Source: Brachionus manjavacas (Eukaryota; Rotifera; Eurotatoria; Ploima; Brachionidae). From it: a stretch of DNA of 64,000 bases. A model generated the notes under the pieces. It was not told the DNA's origin, searched no databases, and saw nothing but the letters and a program-made list of their open reading frames with translations. The stretch lies in assembly GCA_019054805.1 (NCBI GenBank), contig JAHQIY010000012.1:1736001-1800000 (forward strand), in the 5' to 3' direction. Each line of letters opens with the position of its first letter. Position 1 is the first letter of the stretch. Below are positions 7,796 to 61,000 of the stretch, in pieces. A program made the position numbers and the translations under genes.

Positions 7796-8835
7796 TTAGT
7801 ATACAAGGCAGCACGTCCACTTTAATCCAGCAAAAGCAGCGTCCATATAACGTTGGAACGTAGCGGGTGCATTCGATAAGCCAAAAGGCATAGCTTTAAA
7901 CTCAAACAGACCGTAATGGCTTATAAATGCAGTCTTTTCTATGTCTTCTTGTGCCATAGGAATTTGCCAGTAGCCGGAAGTTAAGTCCAGTGCGGAAAAG
8001 AACGAGGCTTGTCCTAGGGAATTAAGGCTGTCGTCAATTCTTGGTAGAGGGTATACATCCCTTTTTGTGATAGCATTAACTTTCCCATAATCAACGCAAA
8101 AGCGTACAGAGCCGTCTTTCTTTCCCACAAGAACCACTGGCGAAGCCCAAGGGCTCTGACTTGGCTGAATAACCCCTTTTTCTAGCATATACTCTATTTG
8201 TTCTTCAATAACTTTCTTTTCCTTTATTCCTGCCTTATACGGCGGGCTATTCACTGGTAAGTTATCTCCAGTGGGAATATGGTGTGATACGTTTACAGCT
8301 TTACCTGGCTCGGCTAATGTTTTACTAAACAAATCCCTATTGGCACATAGTAAATCTTTAAGAACAATCAGTTGTTCTTGATCAAGCTCACAGTCGGTGA
8401 GATCAACTCCTTCCGGTAATTCAGCACTTTCTTTGTCTGCATTTACCTCGGGTGTTTTCCACTCCTCTAAGGTAATCAAATGGTAATCTTTATCCTTAAC
8501 TTGCTTTAACTGGCCCACGATTGTTCCTTTTGGTAAGGCTACAGAATGATTGGTTAGATTACTTAAATTGATAGTGACACTTTCACTTCATTCGACTATC
8601 CCTTTTCCTCGACAAACACCGAATTTTTCTACCAGTGCCGGGTGATTCCCGACCAGGGCCTTATTTCGAAACTTTCGTGATGGATTAGTGTCCATTAATG
8701 AAAATGAAAGGGCAACATTGAGGTCGCTGGATATGGCAGACTCGGTTAGTCGGATAGGACTAACTGGATAAGTCCTATGCTGTAGTGTTATGGCGGTGGT
8801 CCTGATCGCTGCTACAGTGACAGTAGGACATCCGA
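7796..8835 (-). pseudogene. Gypsy-type pol fragment (protease end and N-terminal reverse transcriptase)
   Basis: The minus-strand frame 8518-7796 shows Ty3/gypsy RT landmarks: WASPVVLVGKKDGS, RFCVDYGKVNAIT, YPLPRIDD, LDLTSGYWQI, AFISHYGLFEF and MPFGLSNAPATFQRYMD. It ends just before the YxDD catalytic box, so polymerase activity is impossible. Upstream (8519-8835) the same frame continues with a protease-to-RT linker, broken by a TGA near 8590. RNase H and integrase are missing. The fragment is an old broken mobile-element copy; its orientation relative to the LTRs is discussed in the findings. Confidence 0.85.
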
Positions 8836-9584: not shown

Positions 9585-11555
9585 TCAGTCGACTTCATCA
9601 ATAGTTGGGCCACTGCGTCCCGCACTCTCAGGCCCAGCGCCAGGCATACCGCCAGGCATACCGCCAGGCATACCACCAGGCATACCGCCGGGCATGCCAC
9701 CAGGCATACCACCAGCGCCCTGATACAACTGAGTGATAATCGGCGAGCAAACTTTTTCCACCTCTTTGAGCTTGTGCTCGAACTCGTCTTTTTCGGCGGT
9801 CTGGTTCGATTCCAGCCATTTGAGGGCCTCTTCACACGCGTCCAAAATCTTCTTCTTGTCATCGGCGCTGATCTTGGCGGCCAGCTTTTCGTCCTCGACC
9901 GTTTGCTTCATGTTAAAGCAGTAGGACTCGAGCGAGTTCTTGGCGGCGACTTTGTCGCGCTGGGCCTCGTCGTCTTTCTTGAACTTCTCGGCCTCGTTGA
10001 CCATTCTCTCAATGTCCTCTTTGCTCAATCTGCCCTTGTCGTTGGTGATGGTGATTTTGTTGGATTTGTTGGTCGACTTGTCCATGGCGGACACATTGAG
10101 GATGCCGTTGGCATCGATGTCGAACGTGACCTCAATTTGCGGCACTCCGCGGGGCGCCGGCGGTATGCCCGACAGCTCGAACTTGCCCAACAAGTGGTTG
10201 TCCTTGGTCATGGCCCTCTCGCCCTCGTACACCTGGATCAACACGCCGGGCTGGTTGTCCGCATAGGTGGTGAACGTCTGCGTCTGCTTGGTAGGAATGG
10301 TGGTGTTGCGCTTGATCAGGGCGGTCATGACGCCGCCGGCGGTCTCAATGCCCAGTGAGAGAGGTGCCACATCGAGCAGCAAGAGGTCCTGGACGGCCTC
10401 GGACTTGTCGCCGGTCAAAATGGCCGCCTGGACGGCCGCGCCGTACGCCACCGCCTCGTCCGGGTTAATCGACTTGTTCAGCTCTTTGCCGTTGAAAAAG
10501 TCCTGCAAGAGTTTTTGAACTTTGGGGATGCGGGTCGAGCCGCCCACGAGCACAATCTCGCTAATGCTTGACTTGTCCATTTTGGCGTCGCGCAGCGACT
10601 TCTCGACTGGCTCGAGAGTGCCGCGGAACAAGTCGGCGCAGAGTTCTTCGAAGCGAGCTCTGGTGATGCTGGTGTAGAAGTCGACGCCTTCGTGCAGCGA
10701 GTCGATTTCGATGTTGGCCTGAGCGGACGAGGACAGAGTGCGCTTGGCTCTCTCGCAAGCGGTGCGGAGACGGCGCAGCGCCCGCTTGTTCGACGTGATG
10801 TCCTTTTTGTTCTTGCGCTTGAACTCCTCGACAAAGTGGTTGACCAGGCGGTTGTCGAAGTCCTCGCCGCCCAAGTGAGTGTCGCCGGCCGTGGCCTTGA
10901 CCTCGAAGATGCCGTCCTCGATGGTCAGAATGGACACGTCGAAGGTGCCGCCGCCCAAGTCAAAGATCAGGATGTTCTTCTCGCCGGCGCCCTTCTTGTC
11001 GAGGCCGTAGGCGATGGCGGCCGCGGTCGGCTCGTTGATGATGCGCAGCACGTTGAGGCCGGCGATGGCGCCCGCGTCCTTGGTCGCCTGGCGCTGCGAG
11101 TCGTTGAAGTAGGCCGGCACGGTCACCACTGCGTCCGTGACCTTTTTGCCCAGATAGGCCTCGGCCGTCTCCTTCATCTTGGTCAGCACCATGGACGAGA
11201 CCTCCTCGGCCGAGAAAGTCTTCGTTTCGCCCTTGAACTCCACTTGGATCTTGGGGCGGCCCGCGTCGCTGATCACCGTGAACGGCCAGTGCTTCATGTC
11301 CGACTGGACCTCGGCGTCCGTGAACTTGCGGCCGATGAGGCGCTTGGCGTCGAACACCGTGTTGTTCGGGTTCATGGCCACTTGGTTTTTGGCCGCGTCG
11401 CCGATCAAGCGCTCCGAGTCGGTGAAGGCCACGTAGGAGGGTGTTGTGCGGTTGCCCTGGTCGTTGGCGATTATTTCCACTTTGCCGTGCTGGAATATGC
11501 CCACGCACGAGTACGTGGTGCCCAAGTCGATGCCGATTGCTGAACCTTTGCTCAT
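9585..11555 (-). CDS. hsp70: Cytosolic heat-shock protein 70 (inducible type, intronless)
   Basis: A single exon of 656 codons. The ATP-dependent chaperone binds exposed hydrophobic segments of proteins. The nucleotide-binding domain (about residues 1-385) starts with [15 protein letters not shown] and has [14 protein letters not shown] and the [13 protein letters not shown] loop. The substrate-binding domain and lid follow (about 395-610), then six GGMP-type repeats and the C-terminus TIDEVD. GGMP repeats plus a terminal EVD mark the cytosolic/nuclear class; the usual EEVD reads DEVD here. No ER or mitochondrial targeting signal is present. The lack of introns fits a stress-inducible gene. 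The coding region is strikingly GC-rich against its AT-rich surroundings, which creates long spurious antisense frames (for example 10692-11543, plus). Heat-shock elements and a TATA box lie upstream. Confidence 0.98.
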
Positions 11556-11669
11556 TGCTAGTCTCTTTTGGTTTTGTACGAAGTGGTTTTTTTTGTTTCA
11601 AAAATTTAAAAATTAAGATTAATCTTTAGAATTTAGATTGATTTAGTTTGTGTTGAGAGTGCGAAGGCA

Positions 11670-11676
11670 TTTTATA
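11670..11676 (-). promoter_or_regulatory. TATA box of hsp70
   Basis: TATAAAA on the minus strand, 114 bp upstream of the ATG at 11555. A start site about 25-30 bp downstream would give a 5' UTR of roughly 90 nt. Confidence 0.75.
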
Positions 11677-11698
11677 CATGCAAAATTTACTAAGACTA

Positions 11699-11761
11699 GA
11701 AGGTCTTAGAAGCTAGTAGATTTGTTAATTGGTAATTTTGTTGTTCGAGAATTTTCTAGAT
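11699..11761 (-). promoter_or_regulatory. Heat-shock elements (HSF binding sites) of hsp70
   Basis: At 11744-11761 the 5-bp units TTC-nn-GAA-nn-TTC-nn-GAt are in perfect register, a strong HSE. At 11699-11711 GAA-nn-TCT-nn-GAA is a weaker one. Both lie just upstream of the TATA box, as expected for heat-inducible control. Confidence 0.75.
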
Positions 11762-11843
11762 CAATTTTTTTCTAATTTATTTTTTTTTTTTTCTATTTTT
11801 TGTTGTTGTCGAAAAGACACGAGGTGGTGTGCTTTTCTCTCAT

Positions 11844-11864
11844 TCTCTCTCTCTCTCTCTCTCT
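11844..11864. promoter_or_regulatory. (TC)n/(GA)n tract upstream of hsp70
   Basis: An uninterrupted CT dinucleotide run (GA on the hsp70 strand) between HSEs. In Drosophila, GA repeats at hsp70 promoters bind GAGA factor and keep chromatin open; a similar role here is only inferred by position. Confidence 0.45.
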
Positions 11865-11919
11865 AGTCGTTCAGTATTTTCGAACGCTATAATTTGGAAA
11901 ATTTATTCTTATCTTCAGG

Positions 11920-11932
11920 TTCTAGAAAAGTC
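11920..11932 (-). promoter_or_regulatory. Distal heat-shock element
   Basis: TTC-TA-GAA-AA-GTC, two perfect units and one 2/3 unit in 5-bp register, about 250 bp upstream of the hsp70 TATA box. Confidence 0.5.
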
Positions 11933-12915
11933 CAGTCACGTTACTCTGAATCAGCGAGAAAACAAAATGCAGAGCAACTATGACACAAAAAATGCTTTTT
12001 TTGTTCATTCTTTTTCAAATTTTGGTTCATTGTAGGATTTGATGTTTTTGATTTTTTTAGCTAACTGCCAAACCATGAATTTACCATGTTTGAATAATAA
12101 TGATAAACTCAAAATAAGGCTAAAAATTAAAATATTTGTAAAAATCATTTTACTGTGATGCTTGAAAAAAAACAAAAATCAAAATTTTATTTACTATTCG
12201 TACGAGTCTGAAATTCTTGCTTTTGTCAATTAATAAAATAAATTGAATGTTGTTTTAATTTTATAAATGATAATCCTAGAATTTTGAAGTCAGGTAAAAA
12301 ATTAACTTTAGCGACCTTGACTTACAAACAAGCCTGGCCAAAATATAAAGATTATTATCTTTAGAGAAAAAATTATGCTTTGTTTAATTAATTTATTAAA
12401 TTTATTAGAAAATAATTAATAATCACATTGAATTTTTTTAATTTTTTAAAGATTAATCTAGATTGATAGAGAAATGCAATCTGGTAAAAATGAACCAAAT
12501 CCTAAATCCGAATGGAATATTTGGGCTATCGAGGTCGACGACCAACTCTGGTTTAGCTGAGACACATTCAATAACTCAAGTAAACTGTGGTCAATAAAGC
12601 AAAAAAAAAATTTTTTTTTTAATTTAAATTAAAATTTTATATTTAATTTGAAGAGCATAATCAAATTAATTTTTATTTTTAAATGTTGATTTTGAATTTT
12701 TTTAAACAGACTTAAATATTTTTTGAATTTTTATCAAAAGTATTATATATATTAAATTAAAATAAAGAATTCTGCAAAAAGTAAAATTTTGTACAAGCCA
12801 ATTTTAAGCTAAAACCCTGAAATTATATAAATGAAAATCAAATCTTTTAAAATTTTAATTTTTTTCACCTAATTTATCAAAAAAAATTGTCTCAAAAATC
12901 CATGTTACAATTTGA
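11933..12915. other. Spacer between hsp70 and the DEG/ENaC gene
   Basis: No gene is supported. A short plus-strand frame at about 12474-12560 (28 codons, ending EVDDQLWFS) sits in a slightly less AT-rich patch and could be an exon remnant; no family is recognised. The rest is AT-rich and would include the 3' UTR of the channel gene. Confidence 0.4.
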
Positions 12916-14316
12916 TTAAATTGATTGATGAATTTCCTTCGAATTTGTCAAAGACAATAAAATTTTAATAAAAAACTCGATAAATTCTATCAATGTCAAA
13001 AAACTCATACCCAGGAATAGTCCAGCAATGCCGCCTATATTCGATAAAAGAGTTGTCAAGTCAATATTTGGATTTTCAGTAACAGATATGTAATCTAAAG
13101 TTTTATAATAAATATTAACCACTGCTAGGTCATTACTGTCAACTGTTTTATTAAAATATTTAGAATCTTTTCCGCTGTAGCTTGTTAAAAAATCTTCATA
13201 CATTAAATTTGAAAATTGATTTGAAGTAACTGTTTTGTCAAATTTCATTTTTTCACACTCTAATGGACATTTTTTGATACATTCTTCTTCCAAGTAATTA
13301 GTTTCTTCCAGAAAAATATAAGAATAATCTAAACAGAGACTGTCCCATATACCACAAGCTTTCGACTCAAAAAAACATGGAAGATTTGGAAAATAACAAT
13401 TACATCTAGTTATAAATATTTTCTGAATGCATTGAATAACACAAATCCTTTGATTATATTCTGTCAAACTTGAATGTACAAGCTTAAAAAACTCAGAATC
13501 ATGGCTGTTTATGTCATTTGTAGTTCCGTCACATTCACTGTAAGGCTTTTGATAGAAACTGTAAAAAGTTCTTGACAAAGCAATATTTGTTTCAGCTCTG
13601 GATGAAATTGTCAGCTCCTCAACCATTAATGGATTAATAGTGTGATTGTGAATTAAAATTAGGGCTCCGGCACTTGGGCTAATGGATTTTAATTTATTAG
13701 ACACACTTGTGTTTAAAACAAGTCTCAGTCCAAGCATTCTATCAGTTTGAACAATTTTATTTTTTTCAATTAAGTTTCCGCTCATATTGAATCCAGAATT
13801 GAATTGATAGCAATTTCCATACTTAGGATGTAAAAAAAGTCTGAAATTTTTGGCATCGCATAATTTGGTATTGAATTCACATAGGACAATTAACTTGTCA
13901 AATGAGTCACTTGTTTGAGAAATATTCTGGCTATGGCCTTGTACAAATAATTGAAAGTAGACCAGTAATGGGTTGATGGTGAAGTTGATTGAAGTGATAG
14001 TAGAGAAAATGGTGTTGGTGTCAACATTAGACGTAAATTTGTTCAGATTGCAGATGGTAACTGTAGGAAAAAGAGACCTAGGCTCGTTGATCACCCTGAT
14101 CTTTGTTGTTACTTCATGCTGTAAATAATTTTTTATATTTTCTGTGAACAAAAAGAGGCATAGTCCAAATGATAAACAGGTGAAAAATGTCCATAAAATT
14201 TTTATTAAAACATTTTTTGACTTGAAAATACTTGGAATTCCATGAATTGTTGATGAAAGTATCATGTCAATAATAACTCTCTTGACTCTAAGCTTTTTTG
14301 AATTTATTTCATCCAT
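12916..14316 (-). CDS. DEG/ENaC family cation channel subunit
   Basis: A single exon of 466 residues. The topology is two transmembrane segments (about 38-57 and 430-455) with a large cysteine-rich extracellular loop. The family gating motif His-Gly is at residues 25-26 (STIHG). FPTVTICN follows TM1, the post-finger cysteine cluster includes CIQKIFITRCNCYFP and CPLEC, and the pre-TM2 region reads LLSNIGGIAGLFLGMSFLTLIEF. The selectivity-filter triplet is GMS, where many members have G/S-x-S. Such channels form trimers and pass sodium in response to peptides, protons or force; the trigger cannot be inferred. At 466 residues it is slightly shorter than most relatives but has both ends. No introns, unlike most genes nearby. 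Confidence 0.92.
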   Translation of the reverse strand: MDEINSKKLRVKRVIIDMILSSTIHGIPSIFKSKNVLIKILWTFFTCLSFGLCLFLFTENIKNYLQHEVTTKIRVINEPRSLFPTVTICNLNKFTSNVDTNTIFSTITSINFTINPLLVYFQLFVQGHSQNISQTSDSFDKLIVLCEFNTKLCDAKNFRLFLHPKYGNCYQFNSGFNMSGNLIEKNKIVQTDRMLGLRLVLNTSVSNKLKSISPSAGALILIHNHTINPLMVEELTISSRAETNIALSRTFYSFYQKPYSECDGTTNDINSHDSEFFKLVHSSLTEYNQRICVIQCIQKIFITRCNCYFPNLPCFFESKACGIWDSLCLDYSYIFLEETNYLEEECIKKCPLECEKMKFDKTVTSNQFSNLMYEDFLTSYSGKDSKYFNKTVDSNDLAVVNIYYKTLDYISVTENPNIDLTTLLSNIGGIAGLFLGMSFLTLIEFIEFFIKILLSLTNSKEIHQSI

Positions 14317-15485
14317 CTTTTTTTTCTCTTTTTACTTTATTTTTTCCATTGATTTTCGACTTTAAATAGGAAAATTTTTTGAAATTATTTTTTCCGTGAC
14401 TAAACGGTAATTGAAATTTAGCAGAAAAAATCTATAAAAAATTGTCAATTAAGTTGAAATTAGATTTTTTTCATTTAATTTTTATTACAGGAAATAAATT
14501 AAAAAAAAAACTTAAAGAGACGGAAATTTTAGAGAAAGGTAAATTAGAAAATTTTTATTTTAATAATTTGCCATTAATTTAATACTTTTTAATCGATTTG
14601 TACCGGATATTCGATTAGAAGACTAGGCAACATTATTTTTCATTTAAAATAATGACAAACCAAACGATCATTTAAAATTTTAAAACTTAATTAACCTAAT
14701 GATTTTGATAATTTTTAAGAAAAAAATACTAAACATTACTTGACATGCTATGTATAATAATGGTTCATTATCAAATTAACATCAAAATAAATGATCTCTA
14801 ATTTATATAATAAAAACAATCAGCAATTTAAATTATTCAGGTGGTTAAGTTAATTCAAAAATTCAAATTTATAACTTTTATATCCACTCATTCAAACTTA
14901 AATAATGTTATTTTTCCACTAAAATAAATTATAATTTTATAAAAAATAATAAAAAAGACACGATTTCGGGGACACTTATTTGCAAGGGTATACGGTAGAA
15001 ATTAAACAGAGTGTTTTTAGCAACGCCAGTCTCAACACTTATAATTTATATTGTGACTTCTTTTTATCAAGAAAAGTTAATGAGAAAATTGTATATTCTA
15101 ATGATCAATATATAATATAAAGATTGCTTATTTATTCATTTTTATATAAAAATATCCAATTGAAATTTATTCAAGCGTGATCAGTAAAATTTTTTTAGTG
15201 ATCAGTGTTAAAATTCTCGTGATCAATCATTTGATCACATATTGTGTGGTCATCTATTTGGTGATCCGTCTTGTTCACAATACCAGCATTGTTAAAAAGA
15301 TTCTTGATCACATAAAGTTTTGCTTTAATTTTTTTTTTAATTTTCTTATCCAATGTTGAGAAATTTCTTAATTTCTAGGAAATTAAAATATAAAAAAATA
15401 ATAAAAATTAAGTAAAACAAGATAAAATAAAATAAAAATAGATAAGAAGACAAAAAAGGATAAATAAGTTAAACAAGGCTTATAT
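14317..15485. other. Upstream spacer of the DEG/ENaC gene
   Basis: No supported gene. Between 15175 and 15310 TGATCA or GTGATC words recur many times (for example at 15179, 15200, 15222 and 15235), a loose repeat of unknown meaning. The rest is AT-rich and would include the channel promoter. Confidence 0.45.
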
Positions 15486-15787: not shown

Positions 15788-18570
15788 TCAAGTTTCAGGA
15801 AAAAAAGAAGAAATAGTAAGGTAGCAATTACACAATGGAGTTGGGTATTCAATATATCTTGATTCGAAACCTTCTTTGTATTCTTTCACCAGTCTTTCAA
15901 CCAATGGAATAGAATGACTCAGTCCTGTCCCAACATATTTCTCACTCAACTCAAAAAGACGATTTGAGACTGTTAGTAATTTTAGTTAATTAAAAGCTTC
16001 ATGTTGCACGATGTTGGAGGGAGTATCATATTTTAAATTAAGGATTGATCTTACTGCTGTATTCTGAATTGCTTGAAGTTTTTTGATATTATTTTCTGAA
16101 AATGAATTCAAGCAAGGAAAAGAATAGTCTAAAATCGATCCGACTAAAGATTTATATAAATTTCCTAGTGTGTTTTGATTGAGACCCCATTTTTTGTTTG
16201 ACAATATCTTAATAATATTATTTTTGTTGCAGCGTTCTTTAATTTCGTCTACTAGTATATTAAAGTTTAACTTAGAATCAAATTTAATACCAAGAAACTT
16301 GATTTCTTTTTGGCTCACTATTCTGTTTCCATAGATTTTTAAGTTTAGATTATCACCCTCTTTTTTGTACCTAGAAAAGACTACTGAACACGACTTTTCA
16401 ATTAATAAGCCATTGTTCTAGTTCGTTGGTGTATTTATTAATCTTATTTTCTAGGTTCCCTTTCTTGTTATAAATGAAGAATGTAACTAGATCATCTGCG
16501 AAAAGCAAGGAGTATTCATTATTTGTTTTGTTTCGTTTTGGGATGTCATTAATATATATACTAAATAAAAGAGGACTAATTACTGAGCCTTGAGGAACAC
16601 CTGCAGTTATTTTATATTCTTCGCTCAGATGATCATTCACATTTACCTTAAATGTCCTACTATCTAAAAAGGATCTAATCCAGTTAGTCAAGTAATGAGG
16701 TGGATTCATTTTAATCAATTTAAAAAGTAGACCTTCATGCCAAACCCTATCAAAGGCTTTAGAAATATCAAAAAAAAGGCCACAAACTCTTTTTTTCTAT
16801 TAAATGATTCCACAATTTTTTGAATTAAAAAGAAAAGATTATCTGATGTTCGCCGGTGTTTCCTAAATCCAGATTGCTCCTGGATAAGGAGTGAATTTTG
16901 TTACAAATAATTGTATAATCTTGAAAATACTATGGGTTCCAGGAGCTTTCCTAAACAACTCGTTATACTTATTGGTCTATAATTTAAAGGATCTTGTAAA
17001 GAAGAGGCTTTTTTTTGAATCATAGTAATGTCCGATGTTTTCCATGCTTTAGGGACTCTACCTTCTCGAAGAGATAAATTAAAAAGTTCTATAATTTCTA
17101 TTAATGAATTTCTAGGTAAGTTTTTTAACATTAGATTATGAATTTGGTCAGTTCCTGATGCCGCTTCATTTTTCAATCTTTTTAGAGCCATAATTAATTC
17201 ATTTAAGCAAATTGGATCATTAAAATTAGTCTGATCATAATTTCTAAAGAATTCAGAGTTAGAATTAAGTATTTCGAAATCTTTATCACGATCGATTAAA
17301 TCAGAATTAGGACTAAATATTGAAGATAGGAGTTCTCCAAAGCATTTTCCCTTTTCTTCATTAGTTTTGAATTCCTTGTCATTTGAAAACAAATTTGGGA
17401 TTAAATTCGATCCTTTTTTTGATCTAAATTTATTTATTTTTTTCCAGAATGGTCTACTTGTCAGTGGGTTTTTTCCCATTTTCTCAATAAAATCAAACCA
17501 ATTTTGATTCCAAAATTTTTTTAAAGAGGCCTTTAACTCAAATGTAAGTTGATTAAATTTTTTCTTGAGATTTTGACAGCGAGTTTTTTGGAAGTTTCTT
17601 CTTACTTACCCACGTTCTTTAATTGAATTAACAACAATGTTCGGTGGAAGACTGGATTTGGAGATTTTCTGAGAATGGTAAGGAATGCTTTTATGTGAAG
17701 TAGAAATAATTTTTTCTGTAATTTTATCATTTAGTTGATCTATTGTGAGGGGACTTTCAGTGATATTAACTATTTGAGAATTTAAAATCTCGCTGAATAA
17801 TTGCCAGTTTGCTTTTTTATCGTAAAATTTTTTATCTGCTGATTTATTTTCTAATTGATAGCCCATAGAAATCGATGCTTCGATTGGGAAATGGTCACTA
17901 GTCATGTCTTGACTATTTAGGACACAAAAGTCGGTAATTTTGTCAATTAATGAAGATGAAACTAAGAAAAGATCAAGAATTTCAAAGTAATTCCTATTAA
18001 AAATATTGAAAGTAGGACGCTTATCATTGATTACTGAGAAGTCTAACTCATTGATTATTCTTTCCAACATTATGCCGTTTTCATTTTCCCCTACGCAGCC
18101 TATTTGCTTTGTTCTGGCGTTAAGATCACCACCTAAAATGTAGTTTCTACATTTTTTGTTAACAGTTTTAAAAAACTCAAAGTTCAGAAGCATATTGGGT
18201 GGATTAAAAACAATTCATTATTCTTTCCTAAGTTCATTTTTATACAAAGGAGTTCGGAATTGAATTCCTCATAAGAGAAATCTTGTATAAATTCAATTCC
18301 TTCTTTAATTAAAATTGCTACTCCTCCTCCATACTTGTTGCGTGGATTTGTTATGAATTGATAATTTTGAAAATCAAGATAAATATTTGCCTCACTTAAA
18401 TTTATCTTTAGTTCATTGAGCAAAACAATGTCTGGACATTTTTGAGCTAAAAAATTGGCTAAGAGATGAACCCTACTAGGTAAATGAAGACAATTCCAGT
18501 GTGTAATTACTAACCTTGTTTTATTAAGAGGTTTTGTTCTTAAAGTTGATTTATTTAGCTTCTTGTTCAT
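15788..18570 (-). pseudogene. LINE ORF2: APE-type endonuclease and reverse transcriptase, broken
   Basis: Starts at the ATG overlapping the ORF1 stop. The endonuclease shows THWNCLHL, VLLNELK, NKYGGGVAILI, GGDLNAR and the SDHFPI block. The RT shows GTDQIHN, VPKAWKTSDI, NYRPISITS, AGVPQGSVISPLLF and the catalytic LLFADDL. The tail of the protein is the conserved EYPTPLCNC segment near 15840. Disabling changes are a frameshift near 18190, an in-frame TAA near 17607, a stop near 16900, a frameshift near 16780 and stops near 16395 and 15985. Such enzymes nick target DNA and prime reverse transcription there; this copy cannot. Confidence 0.88.
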
Positions 18571-20489: not shown

Positions 20490-20935
20490 AAAAAATAACA
20501 GTCATTAAAAACGACCATTTAAAATACCTAGAGGTTAGACATGTTGAAATATTTGATAGATCAGGAAAAAAGGAAAACATTTTTAGGGAGCAATTACACA
20601 AAGGAGTTGGATATTCGATAAATCTTGATTCAAATTCTTCTCTGTATTCTTCCATCAATCTTACGATCAATGGAACAGAATGACTCAATCCTGCCCTGAC
20701 TTTTCTACAAGGGTTAATCTTGTCCCCAATTTTCTTTTATAAAATTAAAATTCGAACAATTAGCTGATATAGAAATATAAACTTAATAGGAAAATGATCA
20801 CTCAACATATCATTATCTATCAGAACTTTAAAGTCAACAACTCTATCTAACAGTGAGATTTCGTTAATTAAAAAATTAGAATTATCTGCACTAAGTCTTT
20901 ATTAATTCAAAATTTTAGGTAAAAATTTAAGTTTC
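20490..20935 (-). mobile_element. Internally deleted LINE family A copy
   Basis: Read on the minus strand, an endonuclease piece (SDHFPI block near 20795) is joined directly to the C-terminal segment of ORF2 ([11 protein letters not shown], near 20600). The whole RT domain is missing. It lies immediately downstream of the aminopeptidase-like gene. Confidence 0.75.
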
Positions 20936-20940
20936 CATGA

Positions 20941-23900
20941 TTAAAAAACTCTCTTAATCATGCTGGATAATTTATCATCTTTGTTAATTTTTGTCAATAA
21001 TGATTTGATTTCATCTCTAGCTTTGGCAACAAAGGTCTGCGATGTTTTATTTTCCAAATACTTGTTCTTATTTGGATTGAATTTTCTTCTTCCATCTCCA
21101 AAAGCTTCGATGATTTCCTTTTCCTTGTCCAATAGCCAAATGTTGTTAGTTGATACTACTTCCAAGGCTCGGAATCTCGCATTAGCTGTTGCACCAGTCT
21201 CGGTAAAAAAGACCAACTCCAATAATTCATAGAACAAAAACTCGTTTTCGAATGTTTTTGTAATATCCAAAAGCATTTGACCAAGTCTTGCATCATCTTC
21301 GCCAAACTCTTCAACAAGGGGACGGAAATTGATTCTGTAGTAGTCCCAAGTGATTTCTCTTCCTACTGGATTTTCACTCATCATTCTCACAGTATCAAAT
21401 AGATCAATTTTTTCCAATTTAGCCTGTTTTTGTTCTTCGAGCAATTTTGCCAGCAACCAAGGCAGTCTAGTGAAGGTCAAAGACTCTAGGAGTCTTCTCC
21501 TTTCGGCCAAATCTTCTATATTCTCATACTCTCTCAAAATCAGATCCCATTCGTTCACATTGTAAGTGTTTTGGACGTGGTAGTTAAAGACAATTTCTCT
21601 CACATATGGAGGCAATCGGCTTTACAATTAAATTAAAATTAAAAAAAAAAATTTTTCATAAAATTACATTGGATCAAAAGTTCCACTCAAAAGACTTGGA
21701 ATTACTCCTTGCCAGAGTTCAGTTGTTTTTTTCAAGCAGTAGCTGTCTTGAATGCGACAAGCTAAAGATAAAATAGTTTCTTTCAACAGTCTAAAAAAAG
21801 TTGAAAATTTTTTTTTTAATTTTTATTAAAACTTTTTTGAATTACTCTTCAATATGATTTCCGGTTGGTGACCACAAGTCAATGTCTGCTTCAATCTTTC
21901 TCATCATTGAAGTAAAAAATGACGACACTTGCAAGAACGGTTCCTTGTAGTCCAAAATTCCAACCATATCGCTGATATGTTTATGGGCAGTCTTCCATGG
22001 CAAGTAGTCTTTTTCCCGAGTGAGATAGCTGAGAACATCCACAACCTGAACATAAGATGTTCTTTCAGTGAAACCATTCACGAATAAATTGTGAATTATG
22101 TTGGCTCGATCTTCGGGCAAAAATTCCTTTTTTAAATTTTAATTAAATATTTCTCAAAAAAATAAATAATTCAAAAAAATACTCTATTTTCAGCTTTCAA
22201 GGCTCTGCCTAAATTTTCCCAATTTTCAACTGTGTAATCGGTAGCATAGTAGCCGGCAAATTTTCTGTCACAATGAACCCAGATATATTTTTCGGACTGA
22301 GAATTTGGAACCTGTTCGCTGACTTAACCAAAAAAATTATTTTAACCAAAAAAAAAAATCAAAATTTTCCTACATTCTTTTTGATCAACATAAAAATCTT
22401 TTTCTAAAGGAGAGGTGTCATTTTCACTTCGACCAAATGAGCATGTCAATGGAATGTACCAAATGAAACTAAAAAAAATTCAGAGAAAATTAATTTAAAA
22501 AAAAAATTAAATTTTTTCTTTATACTCGTAAACAGATGGATAGAGGAGGTCGCCAGCAAAAATTGATGAGTAAGAATTCAAAGCTCTCGATTGAGTGACT
22601 TTGATAACTTGCTGATTATTTTCATCAACAAGTCTAATATTCAGCAATGGATAGTTGGATTGAGTGACCCATCTGTCAAAAAAGTCCTTGGCAGGCCACT
22701 TGTCTACTGTTTCCAAAAACTCATAGAACTTGTTAATCTCAGCAACACCCCACGGATGTGCATTCAAATAAGCCTTGTGGAAAAAGTAAAAAAAAAAAAA
22801 AAACTAAAAAATAAACTTATTTACAGTCAAAGCTTGTTCTATTTTGCCAAAGCCAACTTCTTCTTCAACCATTCTTAAGATAGCTGCTGTCTTGCTGCTT
22901 TCTATCTCGTCGAAGTATTCTTCGATTTCATACGGATTTGTGATCGGCTTGTAAATTGGATGAGAAGATGGATAGCCATCGCTAACCAAGACATTGATCA
23001 ATTCTTCTGTTATAAATTGTTGGAGCTAAGGATTTTTTTTATTAAAATAGTTAAAAATGTAATAGAAAATTTACTATATTCCATTGAGGGAAGGCTTGAT
23101 TAACGGCTCTATATTTAATGTAGTCTGCCAAACCTTCTTGTAGCCATAGCTCGTCCCACCAAGCAAAAGTGACAAAGTTTCCGAACCACTTTGGTCAAAC
23201 AGTTAAATAAAATTTATTTTTTGATTATTCTAAAAAATTTACAAATTCAGCCAAATTTTTGGCAATCAAAAGAGCAACTCTTTGCAAGTCTCTTTCACTG
23301 GCACTTGCGAATCTTAACAAAACATCTTTTTCTCGGAATATGGGGAGTCCATAGTGAGGAATGGCATCATACTATTTTTAATTAATTTAGATTGGGAGAA
23401 TACTTAGAGTAGGGGTTTTTATTTTACTGGATATTCGGGAATAATGAACATGTCAATTTTAGATGGCAGGGCTGTTTGGTCCACATCTCTGAATATGTCC
23501 ATGAGACCTTCAAATATTTTTTCAGTCATGTTCAACACGTCCATAGCATCAATGGCAAATTGTTTGCGTGACCAAATGTTAAGTCTAATATCACCAGGCA
23601 AATATAGAGTTTCGCGGACAAAATCATCATTGTTGAACACAACAATGCCAATCAAATAAGTTGGTAATTGTCGGCTAGTGGCAAAAGTAGTTTGAACCGA
23701 ATTATTGGCTGTCGGAATTGGTACATCATTCTAAAAGTTTGAATTAAATTACAAAATTTTTTAATATTTGTCATCAATTTTTCTGGTATAAATTGTTGGA
23801 GCTAAGGATTTTCAGACTGGTGAGGGAATACAAAGCGAGTTTTGAATCAAGATATATCGAATATCCGACTCCATTGTGTAATTGCTTCCTTACTATTTCT

Positions 23901-25944
23901 TCCTTTTTTCCTGAATCATCAAATATCTAGAAATATGAATTCTGTTACTCTCTATCAAAATTTATCTAATTTTATTTTAATATTTTAATATTTTAATATT
24001 TAAACTTTGTTTTTTTTTCTTATTTTTCATTTTTATTTTAATTTATTTTATTTAACTTTATTTTAATTTTTTTTTTTAAATTTAATCTAAAGGAGCTTTA
24101 GCTCGGTGCAGATATACAAATAAATAAATAAATAATAGTTTTCAACTTAACGTTGTAATTTTCTTTTCATTACTAAACTTTATTTATCCTCTTTTTCTCT
24201 TTTTATTTTATTTTATCTTATTTAACTTTATTTTTAAATTTTTTTATATATTTTTGTTCTGAAGGAGCATTAGCTCGGTACAGATTTACTATTAAATAAA
24301 TAAAATTTTTTTATGAAAATATTTTAAAGAAATAAAAGTATTCCGTTGAGGAAAGGCTTAATTAACTGCTTTATATTTATTTATTAATTTCTTATGTTTA
24401 CAGTAACAAATAAAATTTAATTTTTTTTATTTTATATTTTTTTATAAATTAAATGAAATTACTTTCAAAAGAGCCCTAATCTGTTGACATGTCTTGAAAT
24501 TATTTACTAAAAATTTAACTTTTTTAGATATTCTTTTTGCTGTAAATTTTGTCACAGCTATCAAATTAAAAATTAATAAAGTCAATTTTAATTAGACAAT
24601 CTAGTTTAAGGGATGAAGTTAGAAAAAATTTAGAAATAAGTATTTTAAAATTTGGACTGTATTATATCGGCTGAAATAAATCAAAACCACTTTTAAACTC
24701 TAAATGAATAAGTTTTCTTTTTTTTTAGTAAAATAAAAGTAATTTAAATCTAAATTTTTTTTTTAAAGATAAATTAATTCAAAAATTTTTTAAATTTTTA
24801 ATGTTTTAATACTTATTGATACATAGAGAAAAAAAATGAAAAGAAAAGATAATTAATTTTTGAACTAATCTGCCAATATTATTGTATTTACTTTTACCTG
24901 TAATGAAAAATTAAATTTATAATGCCAGACAGCCTGATAAAAGACGAGTTTAAAACTTCAATTAAACAAAAAGAGACCTAAAAATTGTGGAAGAAAACAC
25001 TTTATATTAAAAAAAATTACTTGTGCGGGAGTGTTGAACAAGGCAGTGGTGGTTTTTGGATGATCGATTTTCATTGTCCATGTCGGCTTGAACCTTGGTT
25101 CATCAAAGCAAGGAAAAGCATTTCTGGCCTCGATAGGCTCGAATTTTGAAGCCAGCATAGTTCTAAAAGACAAATTTTTTAATTGATATTTTTTTTGTTG
25201 TTAATATTACGATTCAGATCCAGGTGTGCCGAATTGGAACTCAAAAATACCACTGTCATATTCGGGCAAAATAGCAACAAACAAAAATTCAATTGACAAA
25301 GGACCATTTGTCGGATTTAAAGGGTTTTTTGTTTTTATAACGTAATAGTCATTTTTGTAGAAATTAAATTCACCAACACATTCGACTTCCACCTCTTGGT
25401 CATCTTTGTCTTTGATAAATTGTAGAAACGGAAGCTCCTTGGCTGCGTGTACAAGAATATATTTGTCATTATCTGACGAGTACTCTGCAGTGATGTCAAC
25501 TTTCATATCCATAAAACCATCGTAGACACTTAGTCCCCACTCAGGTACAAGAAGCTCAACATCGTAGTGGAGTGGGACATATCTATCAGGGAGACGTGGC
25601 GAATACCATGGATAGGAAACGCCTGGCTCTGGGTCCAAAATTTCCGGACACAAATTGTAACCATCAACTTTCAATTTTCTTGAAAATTTAGCGGACAATT
25701 CTTCTATTTTGCCTGGATATTTTTGTTTGAATTGAGCTATTCTTTCATTTAGATTTGGTCTTGGTTGTGCAGGTTCTACATCACGTGCTGGACGGTCCAC
25801 AATTTCATTCATTTTGGAGCTAGCATCATCACAAATTGGCCTGTTAACAAAGGGAGGCAATAGACCGACTAATAATGAAGACACGACCACAAATGCAGCA
25901 TAGGAGCCTATGACAACATAAGATATATGTAACTTTTCGCCCAT
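20941..25944 (-). CDS. M1 aminopeptidase N-like membrane protein lacking the catalytic residues
   Basis: Twelve exons, all GT-AG and in phase: 25944-25211, 25162-25021, 23730-23428, 23371-23243, 23188-23075, 23025-22825, 22773-22526, 22468-22374, 22322-22183, 22126-21846, 21790-21668 and 21619-20941 (3189 nt, 1062 residues). A short cytoplasmic N-terminus and one signal anchor (about 8-31) give a type II protein. The M1 N-domain includes [11 protein letters not shown], and an ERAP1-like C-domain ends the protein. At the active site the exopeptidase motif GAMEN reads DAIPH (395-399). The zinc motif HELAH reads KNLAE (431-435), before WFGN, and the third ligand Glu454 in WLQEG remains at the normal spacing. 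With both His ligands and the catalytic Glu gone, peptidase activity is not expected; a binding or receptor role is possible. Intron 2 is 1.29 kb and holds LINE debris and a decayed duplicate of exons 5-6. Confidence 0.92.
23772..24392. repeat. Decayed duplicate of exon 5-6 region inside intron 2, split by LINE sequence
   Basis: 23772-23813 nearly repeats 22996-23037 (start of exon 6 with its acceptor, GTTGGAGCTAAGGATTTT). 24338-24385 nearly repeats 23078-23125 (end of exon 5, GAGGAAAGGCTTAATTAA versus GAGGGAAGGCTTGATTAA). They are in the same order and orientation as the real exons. LINE 3' sequence fills the gap. Confidence 0.75.
23812..24302 (+). mobile_element. Two tandem LINE 3' ends (family A) in an intron
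   Basis: The plus strand has the end of ORF2 ([13 protein letters not shown], near 23860), a 3' UTR and a stem-loop tail at 24088-24135. A second 3' UTR and tail (GAGC-ATTA-GCTC, near 24258) follows, ending at about 24302. Both are 5'-truncated and lie opposite in sense to the host gene. Confidence 0.75.
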
Positions 25945-39060: not shown

Positions 39061-41705
39061 AATAAAAAATAATCGAATAGGACTGTTGACCATAGCATTG
39101 CAAAATCACTAGAAGCTGCATCACGACTGATACAAAGCAAATCATTCTAGGCAGTCGTTTTAATGGGAGATTTTAATATGACAGAAATTGAATGGGATGA
39201 AAATGGTTCTCCAGTCAACGTTTCGTCTCAAAGTACAATTGTTAGTGATGCGATCAGCAGTTCAAGCTTAGTGCAAATTGTAAATGGGAATACTTCCATG
39301 AATGATGGTCAACCGATAAGTCTTCTTGACCTAATACTAGTCAGTAATCAAAATCAAGTCACTGAAGTAGAAATCGGCCCTCCATTAGTGAGTAATGCAT
39401 CAAGGAGCCATTGTAGCTTGCGATTTCGGATAATTTCAAAGACAGCAAAGACAAATGCATTCGATAGTAGAATCTTCAATTGGAGAAGAGGAAATTACTT
39501 ATCAATGAATTTGCACCTCGGCAATTTCGATTAGAAGTCCGCACTCGAGACAAACTGCGTCCAGGAATACTACAAGAATTTCCTTGAAATTTTTGGTTTA
39601 GCATCTCAAATGTTCGTTCAGAGAAAGAAGCCACCAAAAGGATGCCAGAAGCCGCCATGGTGGAATTTAGAGATTACTTCGTTTGTTCGCAGAAAAAGGC
39701 GTCTCTCTATCGCAAAGCGCGTCAAAAAAACAAATTGTTATTAGACGTGAAATACAAAAATATATGTAAGAACGTCAAATATGTAGTCAAACAAAGAATC
39801 ATCGATTTTGAATTCATATTGGCCCAGGAATCGAAAGAAAACCCAAAAAAATTATACTCATACATGAATCGCAGATTTTCTACAAGAGAGACCATTGCAG
39901 GGATAATGGAAAGAAATAGACTTTTCATTACGGAAAAAGCAAGCATATGTAACACATTTAATGAATTTTTTCACTCAGTTTTTGATGAACCGACCTCGTC
40001 TTCAGCAATCAAACACGCTAAGGAGATCTTTTTGGCAAGGTCAGAGCCTGATCCAGCTTTCAGTGTTAAAGACATTGTGACACCCGAAAAATTACTCATC
40101 AAGCTTAAAAAACTATGTAGTGACAAGACAGCCGGAATCGACCAGATTTCTACACATGCTCTGAAAATGTGTGCAGAAGCTTTAGCCGGACCCTTGGCAG
40201 TCATATACGAGCAATCTCCAACCCAGTCTGTTCTTCCTAAGGAATGGAAAGAGGCAAATGTCTCACCAATCTATAAACAAGTGAGTAGAACGAATGTTGG
40301 TAATTATCGTCCAGTTTCGCTCATTTCAGTTCCATTTAAAGTTCTTGAGTCACTGATCAAAGACTATATTTTAGGGCAACTGGTCGACAAAAATCTATTG
40401 TCGAGTAAGCAACATGGTTTTGTCGCTAACAAGTCCTGTGTAACAAATTTACTTGAAACTATCGACTTCCTAACTGATTCCAAGAGCCGTAGGTTTCCTT
40501 CGGACGTCATCTACCTTAACTTTGCCAAAACATTTGACAAAGTTTCGCATGAGCTACTCCTTGTCAAGTTGGAGGCGTATGGAATCCCGACTATTATAAT
40601 CGACTGGGTTCACTCTTTCCTCATTGGTCGAAAACAGCGAGTTGTAATTGGAAATGTCATGTCTGAGTGGAATCCAGTCACAAGTGGGGTAGCTCAAGGT
40701 TCTGTTCTTGGTCTACTTCTTTTCGTTATTTACGTCAATGACTTGCTTGATGTATGTCACTCAATCTGTAAGCTTTACGCTAACGACACAAAACTTATGG
40801 ACTCTGTCAAATGTGCCGATGATCTTGAAAGTTTCAAAAGGATCTCGACAATTTGGTTGAATGGTCGAAACTTTGGCAAATGGGCTTCAATAAAGAAAAA
40901 TGCATAGTCATGCATCTTGGAACAGACAACAAATGCTTCGAATACAAAATGAGTAGTCAAAGCCTTGCAAAAACAACCAGAGAACGGGATTTGGGAATAA
41001 TCATTACAAGTGATCTAAAGTCGGGAGAACAGGCCAAGCGAGCAGCAGCAAGGCCCATGATGGTAGCATGTAGAATCAAGAATACATTTACCTTCTTTTC
41101 TCGTCACCTGGTAAATCTGCTTTTCAAGTCATTTGTTAGACCGCATCTTGAGTTTGCAGTGGGCGCTTGGAATCCCTATCGACGTGGGGATATTGATTTA
41201 CTTGAGCGAGTTCAGAGGAAATTTTCAAAACTGGTTCCTGAACTTAAGTCAAAGCCACATCTAGAAAGAAGAGAGGCTCTTGGTTGAATTATACTTGAAG
41301 AAAGACGTAGACGTGGTGATCTAATCCAGCTCCAAAAGATTCACCATGGCCATGATCGTGTTGAGCTTATACATGGCAATCAAACAATCGCATCAAATGG
41401 TTTGGACAGTCCTGCAGGGCGCAAAAGAAAGGGCCAAATGGCAATTGAACGTCAGCTTGTAAGAAATTGTGGAGCCAGGCATAACTTTTTCACCAAGCGA
41501 ATCGCCGGAAACTGGAACACACTTGACGCGACGACTCGAAGTATAAGCGATACAAATATGTTCAAGAATCGCATCGACAAACTTCTTGGTTTCAGATAAA
41601 TAATGTTAAGCGTCAAAAATGGTCGATGGCTGTTATAGCAGGGCGTTTACATGCGCATCTGCTCGGGATTTAGGTCCCTACAGCATAACTTACTACTCCT
41701 ACTTC
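39060..41705 (+). mobile_element. L2/CR1-like LINE, 5'-truncated and broken
   Basis: The plus strand starts within the endonuclease (GDFNMTEIEWD near 39163, then SHCSLRFRI) and runs through RT and the C-terminal region to a 3' UTR ending near 41700 with a TACTACTCCTAC tail. RT landmarks are DKTAGIDQIS, LPKEWKEANVSPI, NYRPVSLISV, KQHGFV, YLNFAKTFDKVSH (normally DFxKAFD) and SGVAQGSVLG. YANDTKL replaces YADDTKL. Frame changes occur near 39534 and 40880, and a stop near 41285. The catalytic Asp to Asn change and the missing Asp in FAKTFDK mean no polymerase activity. Confidence 0.9.
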
Positions 41706-58065: not shown

Positions 58066-61000
58066 TCATCGCTTTACTAAATTTGAATACAAAATTAAAA
58101 ATAAAATCAATAAAAAACTTGTCACTATATTTGTGTATATAAAAATATTATAAGTCTTGAATTCATAAATACACAAGCTGCTTAATAGCGATACCACAAC
58201 TCCTCCGATTAGTACTGCGCTCCAAACAAAACTGAGAAGTACATTTGCTTTCAACTTTGTCACCAATTTCTTATCATCCTGAATTAAATTTACCAACAGC
58301 GGCAGTGAGAAACTCAACATGAATGGATAAAATGCTCCAAAGATGAAGATGGTGTACAAATCAAGCTTAACATTGCCAAAAATTGAGCTAAATGCCATCT
58401 CTGGTGTTTTAATGGATGTCCTATTGAAGAGCATGAACTTCAAATTTTCGGTAAAGTGATCCGAAGTCAATTGGATAAGTGACAAAATAAATAGAACCAA
58501 AAACAATATGCAGAGTGATGAGTGCTTCCGGTTGAACAAATTTTTAAAAACTTTCCCATCCAAAAATTTAGACAGACAATTCTGCTCGGCATGAACCAGT
58601 TCGGTCTTGTTCAATGTGTAAGCATAGATAAGACTAAGAAATCGGCCAACAATAAAAGCCAAAATAAAAAACTTATTAATCAATTCAACTTGATAAAAAT
58701 AGGACTCGGTAAGCCGCGAAATCAAGTAGTTGTCCATGAAAAGAACAAAGTTTAGAAAAAATCCGCCATAGGCTGCCAAAATGGCCAGATATGTCCAAAA
58801 GTTGGCCATTTTCAAGTAAGATTGTCGCTCTCGAACCGGTGGCAAATTCACTCCTGTGCTTCTCTCCTCGTAATCATCCTCAATAAACCTGGTCTCTTTT
58901 TCGTGATCGAACAGGTCCTCATTTTTTAATTTGGTGAACTTAAACCCGGTGGAAAAATTGGTCATTTTGGAATTTTGTCTCTTCATTCTTTTTGTTTTAA
59001 ATTTTTCAATGCACAAAAAACACTTCAGCGTAAAGCATACAAAATGGACTAGCCTTACTAAAAATGGTTTCATGTGTGACAATATCAAGAATGTGTACAT
59101 AAATGCCAAAATCAGATTCAGAACTCCTATTATTATAAAAAAAAATTGAAGCTGATTTGCGTTGGTGTAAAATTCTTTCAATTTTAGAATAGTACCATCC
59201 ATTATGGTGTTCATTTCAAAATGACTCTTTGTGGTAGCCATTTCAAGCAATGTAGATTTAATTGTGGAAATTGAAGTGGTAGTGGTAGTGGTAGTGGTAG
59301 CAGTAGTTGTAGATGTTGGAGTTGTGGTTGTTGTAGATGAAGTTGATGTTGTAGCTTGTGTAGTCTGGTACGTCGAGTGACAAGTGTTTAGATTTGTTTG
59401 GTTAAATTCGCAGCTAAATTTGATGTGGCAAATACTCTCGGAATTTTCATACAGCAAATTACATGTGCTATTTTTTTCTGTACCATCCTGGACACCATTC
59501 ATTCTAATCTTGTTAAAACAATTCGATTCAGCCAAAGAAAAATTCAAATTAAAGCTTTTAAATTGTTCACAGCTCTCGTCCATGGACTGAATATTGCCAA
59601 AGCTTTCTGGACTAAAAAAGTATTTGTAGTCGCATTTTGGCTCGTTGTTGCCATCTTGAGTTGAATTGGTTTGTGTGCAGTTGAAAATTGTGAAGGTGCA
59701 TGTCTTGTTCAGCTTGAGAATGCATTCGGAAATTAGTTGGGATACAGGCTTGGTGCTTTTTGGATCTTTGGTTGTTTTAAGACTGTCCAAATTGGGTTTA
59801 GTAATTCTGTTTTGCTCTAGTTGACCGCCATCTGCTATCTCAGGTTTGGTTTTATGCACCGGTGTTGTAGTTGTGGTTGTAGTGGTTAAAAAATAAGTCG
59901 AGTTGTCTGAACTTTGGGCTAAATCTTCTAGATTATCTTGACGTTTCATTTCGAAGTTTTGCTCTGAGGTGTTAATTGTGTGGTTATTAAGCGAAGTTCC
60001 GATGCTACCTTGGTGTTTGAGAGTAGACACCATCATAAAGTAGCAAACAAAGAATCCAATAAATAATTGAATATATAAAAGATTTAGTTTGAATATGTTT
60101 AAGCATTTTATTTTCTTCAAACACCATTTATAAGAAACTAAAAATTTGAAAAATTATTAAAAAATTATTTTTTTTGTTGAAAAGTTTTAATTTTTTTTCT
60201 ATTAATTAACTTTTTTTTCATAATTTCTTGAAAATAATCTTGTATAGAAACTTTTGATCTTTAAAGAATTGAAATTATTCTTTATTTATATTTTATTTTA
60301 AACAACACCAAGTTTTTAATTTTTTTTGGTTTAAAATTAATAAAATATAATTCATCTTTATGCTGCACAAATACAATGATCGACTTTTACTAAAAATGAT
60401 CAAAAATCTCTTTTTAAAAAAAGATTTAAATTAACTTCTTCTTTAAGTAGAGCATTAAAATAAAAAAAAATTATTCGGGTATTAAAAACCTGTAAACCAG
60501 TGGTCGCTAAATCTCACGGCCATGTAAAAAATAATTTTTAGTTAATTTTTTTTCCATGGCCAAGTTAATTGTTAAATTAGTTTTATTGATAACAATGGTC
60601 ATACATTTTTTAAAGTTTGCTATTTACTATGAATATTTTAAAAATCCAAAATTTCCAAAGTTTCTTTGTAATTATCATTATTATTTATTAAAACTTTTTA
60701 GGTATCATACTAATGTTAGCAGATTTCCATGCTTTCGAGAGTTTACTTTTTCTTAGACTTAAACTAAATAAATAAATAATGGCTTTAAGAATAAACTTTT
60801 GGTTACATATATTTTTATTTTTGTCATTCAAAAAAAGGTCATGTGTCAATAAATTATTTTATTGCAACATAGTGTGTAAATAGACACTCAGAAAAAAAAA
60901 GAAAAAATTTACAAAATCGAGTAAAAAATAAAATTTAGATTCAAATCAAAATATGAATTTAAAAAACTCAATTATCTCAAAAAATTTAATATTTTAACAG

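Follow-up and report, generated by a model that had tools for sequence, protein, structure and literature searches.

To our knowledge, dead homologues of M1 ectopeptidases with a known role are few; pseudopeptidases in general are common. The nearest published kind that we found is the C. elegans M1 protein MNP-1 ("matrix non-peptidase"), which is described as necessary for embryonic muscle and neuronal cell migration and for which a title cited in the same paper states an interaction with the Ror receptor CAM-1 (PMC10368266). Yeast Tma108, also of the M1 family, is described as thought to bind nascent chains rather than cut them; by that account it keeps all active-site residues but one, a substrate-binding residue, and works at the ribosome (PMC11266112). 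Drosophila Gone early is presented as a type II membrane metallopeptidase homologue without zinc motifs that is located on the germ cell membrane (PMC4242634), and a validated FlyBase group is reported to hold 180 pseudopeptidases (PMC12869072). Here we describe a 12-exon gene of the rotifer Brachionus manjavacas that occupies positions 20941..25944, stop codon included, on the minus strand of a 64,000-nucleotide stretch of contig JAHQIY010000012.1 (hereafter the window). Its 1062-residue product has a complete M1 scaffold in which other residues stand in place of the GAMEN loop, both zinc-binding His residues and the catalytic Glu and Tyr, and the Glu that forms the third zinc ligand is kept. 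As a whole, the evidence is best explained, with a probability that we put at roughly 0.7, by a maintained M1 non-peptidase homologue with a zinc-free site that would serve as a type II surface receptor, adaptor or peptide trap.

The window protein belongs to the M1 family by homology, since the Pfam models Peptidase_M1_N (96.7 bits), Peptidase_M1 (143.2 bits) and ERAP1_C (154.5 bits) all scored above their cut-offs. ERAP1_C (PF11838) was matched nearly end to end (profile positions 7-309 of 318), which bears out the complete C-domain described in an initial annotation of this DNA. By sequence, the nearest solved structure is human glutamyl aminopeptidase (APA, ENPEP; PDB 4kx7; E 6.8e-105, residues 110-1008), which is 26.5% identical to the window protein over 853 columns and has a type II anchor. 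With APA and aminopeptidase N the window protein shares the four-domain ectopeptidase scaffold over residues 110-1008, with no gaps at the active-site motifs; it differs from both in that GAMEN, the two zinc His residues, the catalytic Glu and the Tyr have all been replaced. The alignment to APA places DAIPH (residues 395-399; 23354..23368) at the GAMEN position and KNLAE (residues 431-435; 23246..23260) at the HExxH position, which reads HELVH in the human protein. No insertion or deletion accompanies either change, exactly as the initial annotation had read them (GAMEN to DAIPH, HELAH to KNLAE), and its spacing of the third ligand also holds, with 18 residues between Glu435 and Glu454 (23135..23137). 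One further loss lies beyond that annotation: the catalytic Tyr, present in 12 of 12 active-type rows of our alignment, is Ser517 (22897..22899) in the window protein. The protein fails all three tests of an active M1 aminopeptidase, namely the HExxH-(18)-E signature, the GxMEN loop and the catalytic Tyr.

We rebuilt the gene model from the DNA and found the 12 exons in phase, as had been proposed. All 11 introns begin with GT and end with AG, with consistent phases and lengths of 48-57 nt, except for intron 2 (23731..25020), which measures 1290 nt; a spliced aligner fed the window protein itself returned identical exons, a result that serves only as a check of self-consistency. The length of intron 2, together with the copies of exon 5 and exon 6 edges that it holds, is what speaks for a splicing or assembly artefact, in which a missed exon would restore GAMEN and HExxH. 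Reading all six frames, on both strands, between 20.5 and 26.5 kb turned up neither an HExxH nor a GxMEN-like motif, so alternative splicing within that interval is unable to restore the site, and splicing to a hidden active exon was ruled out. A different exon 4-5 junction that brings back HExxH, a possibility raised in the initial annotation, was looked for in the same six frames and interval without success; KNLAE lies wholly within exon 4 (23243..23371), which carries both dead motifs, and no such junction could therefore restore the motif. The copy of the exon 5 end in intron 2 contains an in-frame stop codon, and a close paralogue of the gene, described below, also reads KNLAE. We regard the artefact as contradicted and give it next to no probability.

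We then placed the gene among its relatives by searching the genome (114,169,980 bases in 61 contigs) exon by exon with the Pfam M1 model, which gave 31 matches, and with the window protein, which gave 57. Three oligonucleotides published for B. manjavacas each have one exact match in this genome, namely the MMRBF primer of the mate-recognition gene (PMC2746195) and the mlh3 and vasa sgRNA targets (PMC10395877), as would be expected of B. manjavacas or a close member of the B. plicatilis complex. Eighteen loci were rebuilt with the spliced aligner and, with the window gene, amount to 19 M1 genes, which is a lower bound. Several of these models are incomplete at their ends, such as L016 (726 residues) and L018 (488 residues), and those of L024 and L026 include doubtful tiny exons in their tails. 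The aligner is built to avoid stop codons, so a frame free of stops carries information only for genes whose exons match independently, which holds for the window gene and its near paralogue. HExxH is kept in 13 of the 19 genes and absent from six; among the 13, the GxMEN motif departs from its usual form in L010 (EAMEN), L015 (GAMEH) and L025 (GASEN). The last of these (C4:4312000-4321000) has HExxH and the Tyr intact and is possibly an intermediate or an enzyme of altered specificity.

The near paralogue lies at C12:2980032-2968250, about 1.2 Mb from the window gene, and the two proteins are 67% identical over 1057 columns. It too has 12 exons, the ten internal ones of exactly the window gene's lengths, joined across 11 GT-AG introns (44-63 nt, and three of 1.1-4.4 kb); its model of 1068 residues starts with ATG, a stop codon stands three codons past the end of the model, and the motifs read EAIPH and KNLAE. 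More distant are L024 (46% identity to the window protein; DASPS and KQLSE) and L026 (43%; EAVPH and KLLSE). These four genes form one clade with a support of 100/100 in a tree of 18 rows, from which L014 and L018 were left out as too divergent, and the stem leading to the clade is long (1.07 changes per column). Because the near copy and the two distant copies are dead in a similar way, the window gene looks like a maintained non-enzyme. Each of the four also has an N-terminal hydrophobic anchor together with Cys38 and Cys99 (the model of L026 begins at residue 4 of the window protein). In the window protein the anchor spans residues 10-28 (25861..25917) within exon 1, with a Kyte-Doolittle maximum of 2.26 over 19 residues, and no segment past residue 60 exceeds 1.6, which points to a type II topology. 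For most of the active relatives the N-terminus was not recovered, so the anchor cannot be claimed as special to the dead clade.

Between the window gene and its near paralogue, the proportions of synonymous (pS) and nonsynonymous (pN) differences were 0.71 and 0.195; dS was 2.25, and dN/dS came to 0.10 by the method of Nei and Gojobori (NG86) or 0.09 by maximum likelihood (ML), values that are rough because dS is saturated. By part, dN/dS was 0.36 in the anchor, 0.31 in the stalk, 0.08 in domain I, 0.08 in the catalytic domain and 0.075 in the C-terminal part, and it fell to 0.045 in residues 380-470 around the dead site, so that among the parts with a computable dS purifying selection is strongest there. 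We tried three other pairs and left their ratios unused, as dS was infinite or 1.9-5.0 (NG86) and 15-22 (ML). When neutral evolution was simulated from the window coding sequence, the number of stops averaged 12 at a level of 0.05 substitutions per site and 85 at one of 1.1; not one of 200 runs was free of stops at any of the five divergence levels tried. A decaying pseudogene, in frame by chance, would fit the lost active-site residues, the exon scraps and repeats in intron 2, the long stem of the dead clade and the poor conservation of the last ~50 residues (pN 0.47, dS infinite). It is contradicted by a dN/dS near 0.1 between two copies whose silent sites are saturated, by the open frames and equal internal exons of both copies and by the neutral runs, and we consider it highly improbable. 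We conclude that the window gene is not a decaying pseudogene and that strong purifying selection acts on its protein, the stretch around the replaced site included. Taken with the KNLAE motif and exon structure that the near paralogue shares and with the fully supported dead clade, this upholds the conserved pseudoenzyme of the initial annotation; the stop codons and relaxed selection that it had named as contrary signs did not appear in comparisons between paralogues of this one genome.

To see how the pocket changed, we compared the four dead members with 12 active-type rows (11 rotifer genes, without L014 and L018, and human APA) at the 68 columns that are identical in at least 11 of the 12. 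All four dead members keep the residue in 39 of these columns and have lost it in 15, and the remaining 14 are mixed. Eleven of the 15 lost columns (391, 395, 397-400, 431, 432, 435, 453 and 517) lie in active-site loops by our own assignment. Chance is no explanation for a dead site with 39 of 68 columns kept and 11 of 15 lost ones in these loops, and an intact scaffold with essential residues lost is what identifies the window protein as an M1 non-peptidase homologue. Four of the replacement residues (Pro398, Lys431, Glu435 and Gln453) are identical in all four dead members, which means that the GAMEN Glu has become Pro, the first zinc His Lys and the second Glu; the third ligand is Glu in the same four proteins and in all 12 active-type rows. 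The position of the catalytic Glu, 432, varies (N, N, Q, L), as does that of the Tyr, 517 (S, K, R, S).

Charged residues common to the four members stand at the ligand positions (Lys431, Glu435 and Glu454), which speaks for a new chemistry at a site that has no metal or binds one differently. Such altered catalysis is very unlikely, given that the protein has lost the general base Glu (position 432), the Tyr (position 517) and the GAMEN Glu (position 398) and that the residues at 432 and 517 differ between members. We favour a maintained non-enzyme, in which a Lys and a Glu beside the kept Glu454 are compatible with a possible salt bridge in place of zinc, although they are not proof of one. 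The protein would be anchored as a type II membrane protein with its ectodomain outside the cell and would bind no catalytic zinc; Lys431 may take the place of the metal, held by Glu435 and Glu454, an arrangement that could keep domain II folded. A binding surface would then be provided by the large M1 cavity together with domain IV, and the protein may act as a cell-surface receptor, an adaptor or a peptide trap rather than as an enzyme.

Several points weigh against this picture, in addition to the saturated dS. A single residue is shared by the dead members in only four of the 11 lost loop columns but in all four of the lost columns outside the loops (234, 372, 674 and 719), and 40 of the 134 domain II columns in which the active-type majority residue is absent from every dead member are also invariant among the four; shared descent alone could therefore explain the shared replacements. 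All four dead members come from one genome, and their conservation is seen within that genome alone. The cell-surface binding protein of the initial annotation is plausible, and its place at the membrane gains from the anchor common to the dead members; as for binding, we infer it from fold, topology and analogy.

The main rival to a receptor or trap for an outside ligand is a regulatory partner, a dead protein that would form pairs with active M1 aminopeptidases and adjust their activity or their location. Dimerisation through domain IV is frequent among M1 ectoenzymes, and in the dead clade this domain ranks with the best conserved regions (107 of 330 columns invariant, and 88 of 250 in domain II). 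At least 13 M1 genes with HExxH are present in the same genome as potential partners, and dead partners that activate live paralogues are described in other families (PMC5201418, PMC3663545). However, the window protein is less than 30% identical to each of the 13, and we hold such a partnership to be unlikely, with perhaps one chance in a handful.

Two of the six genes without HExxH fall outside the window clade. L016 (C11:870500-880400), which reads NELAH, and L017 (C11:856500-866000), which reads KELAH, form a second dead M1 pair in which GAMEN is also lost. In the full alignment they group with the HExxH-bearing genes L013, L015 and L025, and these five together with the window clade make a nine-gene set with a support of 100/100. 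That set is unstable: without the pocket columns it drops out of the starred sets, and a tree of domain I places the window clade instead with human APA, L011 and L022. In the trees of domain I (96/96) and of the C-terminal part (100/99), L016 and L017 again fell with L013, L015 and L025. The approximately unbiased (AU) test rejected a common origin of the six dead genes (p 0.0076 for the whole protein and 0.0008 without the pocket columns), a test weakened by the fact that the group was named after the tree had been seen. A tree of the catalytic segment joins all six when the motif columns are included (80/89, in 82% of bootstrap trees) and does so in only 14% of bootstrap trees when they are removed. 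L016 and L017 probably lost catalysis independently of the window clade. L017 carries Pro398 and Lys431 as the window clade does, which, taken with the tree, suggests parallel change; gene conversion of the catalytic segment is possible as well, because that segment groups all six with its motif columns in place.

From these partly shared replacements in two dead clades of one genome comes a tentative and rather doubtful idea. The rotifer M1 zinc site may have been re-engineered into a metal-free Lys-Glu-Glu charge cluster that locks the ectodomain in the form of a permanent receptor, with two changes (the GAMEN Glu to Pro and the first zinc His to Lys) arising twice independently, in the window clade and in L017, as a preferred route from aminopeptidase to receptor. 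This single rotifer genome, with its six or more dead M1 genes and 13 that keep HExxH, offers a testable series from enzyme to non-enzyme, and CRISPR editing is described for B. manjavacas (PMC10395877).

The kind of protein, an M1 pseudopeptidase, is already known, since MNP-1 is published and pseudopeptidases are numerous. By their descriptions MNP-1 and the rotifer family are similar in kind; on the same basis MNP-1 has 781 residues and the window protein 1062, and the rotifer clade has four members with shared Lys and Glu replacements. The window protein is unlike Tma108, as that protein is described, in that only the third ligand survives among the zinc and catalytic residues tested and in having a membrane anchor, and unlike Gone early, which is described as belonging to another peptidase family (M13, neprilysin). 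Among the papers listed in our literature searches, no title or opening of an abstract concerned rotifer M1 pseudoenzymes, and as far as those listings reach neither the rotifer family nor its shared replacement residues seem to have been described before. A figure legend in a section on putatively selected genes names ANPEP of B. calyciflorus (PMC6768451).

The remaining parts of the gene, all on the minus strand, are as follows. Exon 1 (25211..25944) encodes a short N-terminal tail, the signal anchor, the stalk and most of domain I, and is followed by exons 2 (25021..25162) and 3 (23428..23730). Downstream of the motif-bearing exon 4 come exon 5 (23075..23188), with Glu454, exon 6 (22825..23025), with Ser517, and exons 7 (22526..22773), 8 (22374..22468), 9 (22183..22322), 10 (21846..22126) and 11 (21668..21790); exon 12 (20941..21619) holds the end of ERAP1_C and the variable tail. 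Intron 2 contains a decayed copy of parts of the gene itself, namely the end of exon 5, the edges of intron 5 and the start of exon 6, interrupted by some 500 nt rich in repeats; the scraps match the start of exon 6 at 95% over 40 nt and the end of exon 5 at 76% over 84 columns. Related repeats were seen in intron 4 of the C12 paralogue and downstream of that gene; in the window, lenient settings placed others at 15.4-15.9 kb and at 20.4-20.7 kb. An inverted repeat pair of 120 nt, 78% complementary, joins 20549-20668, downstream of the gene, with 23807-23926 in intron 2.

Elsewhere in the window, an HSP70 gene occupies 9585-11597 on the minus strand as one open frame, and the 2 kb bin at 10001-12000 that covers it is the most GC-rich of the window (0.535, with the other bins at 0.195-0.406). 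A single open frame at 12916-14331, also on the minus strand, encodes an amiloride-sensitive sodium channel (ASC) domain. Open frames with reverse transcriptase or endonuclease-reverse transcriptase domains lie at 7796-8587, 17606-18214 and 39588-40907, and a minus-strand frame at 58066-60153, open over 695 codons, matched no Pfam model at E 0.001.

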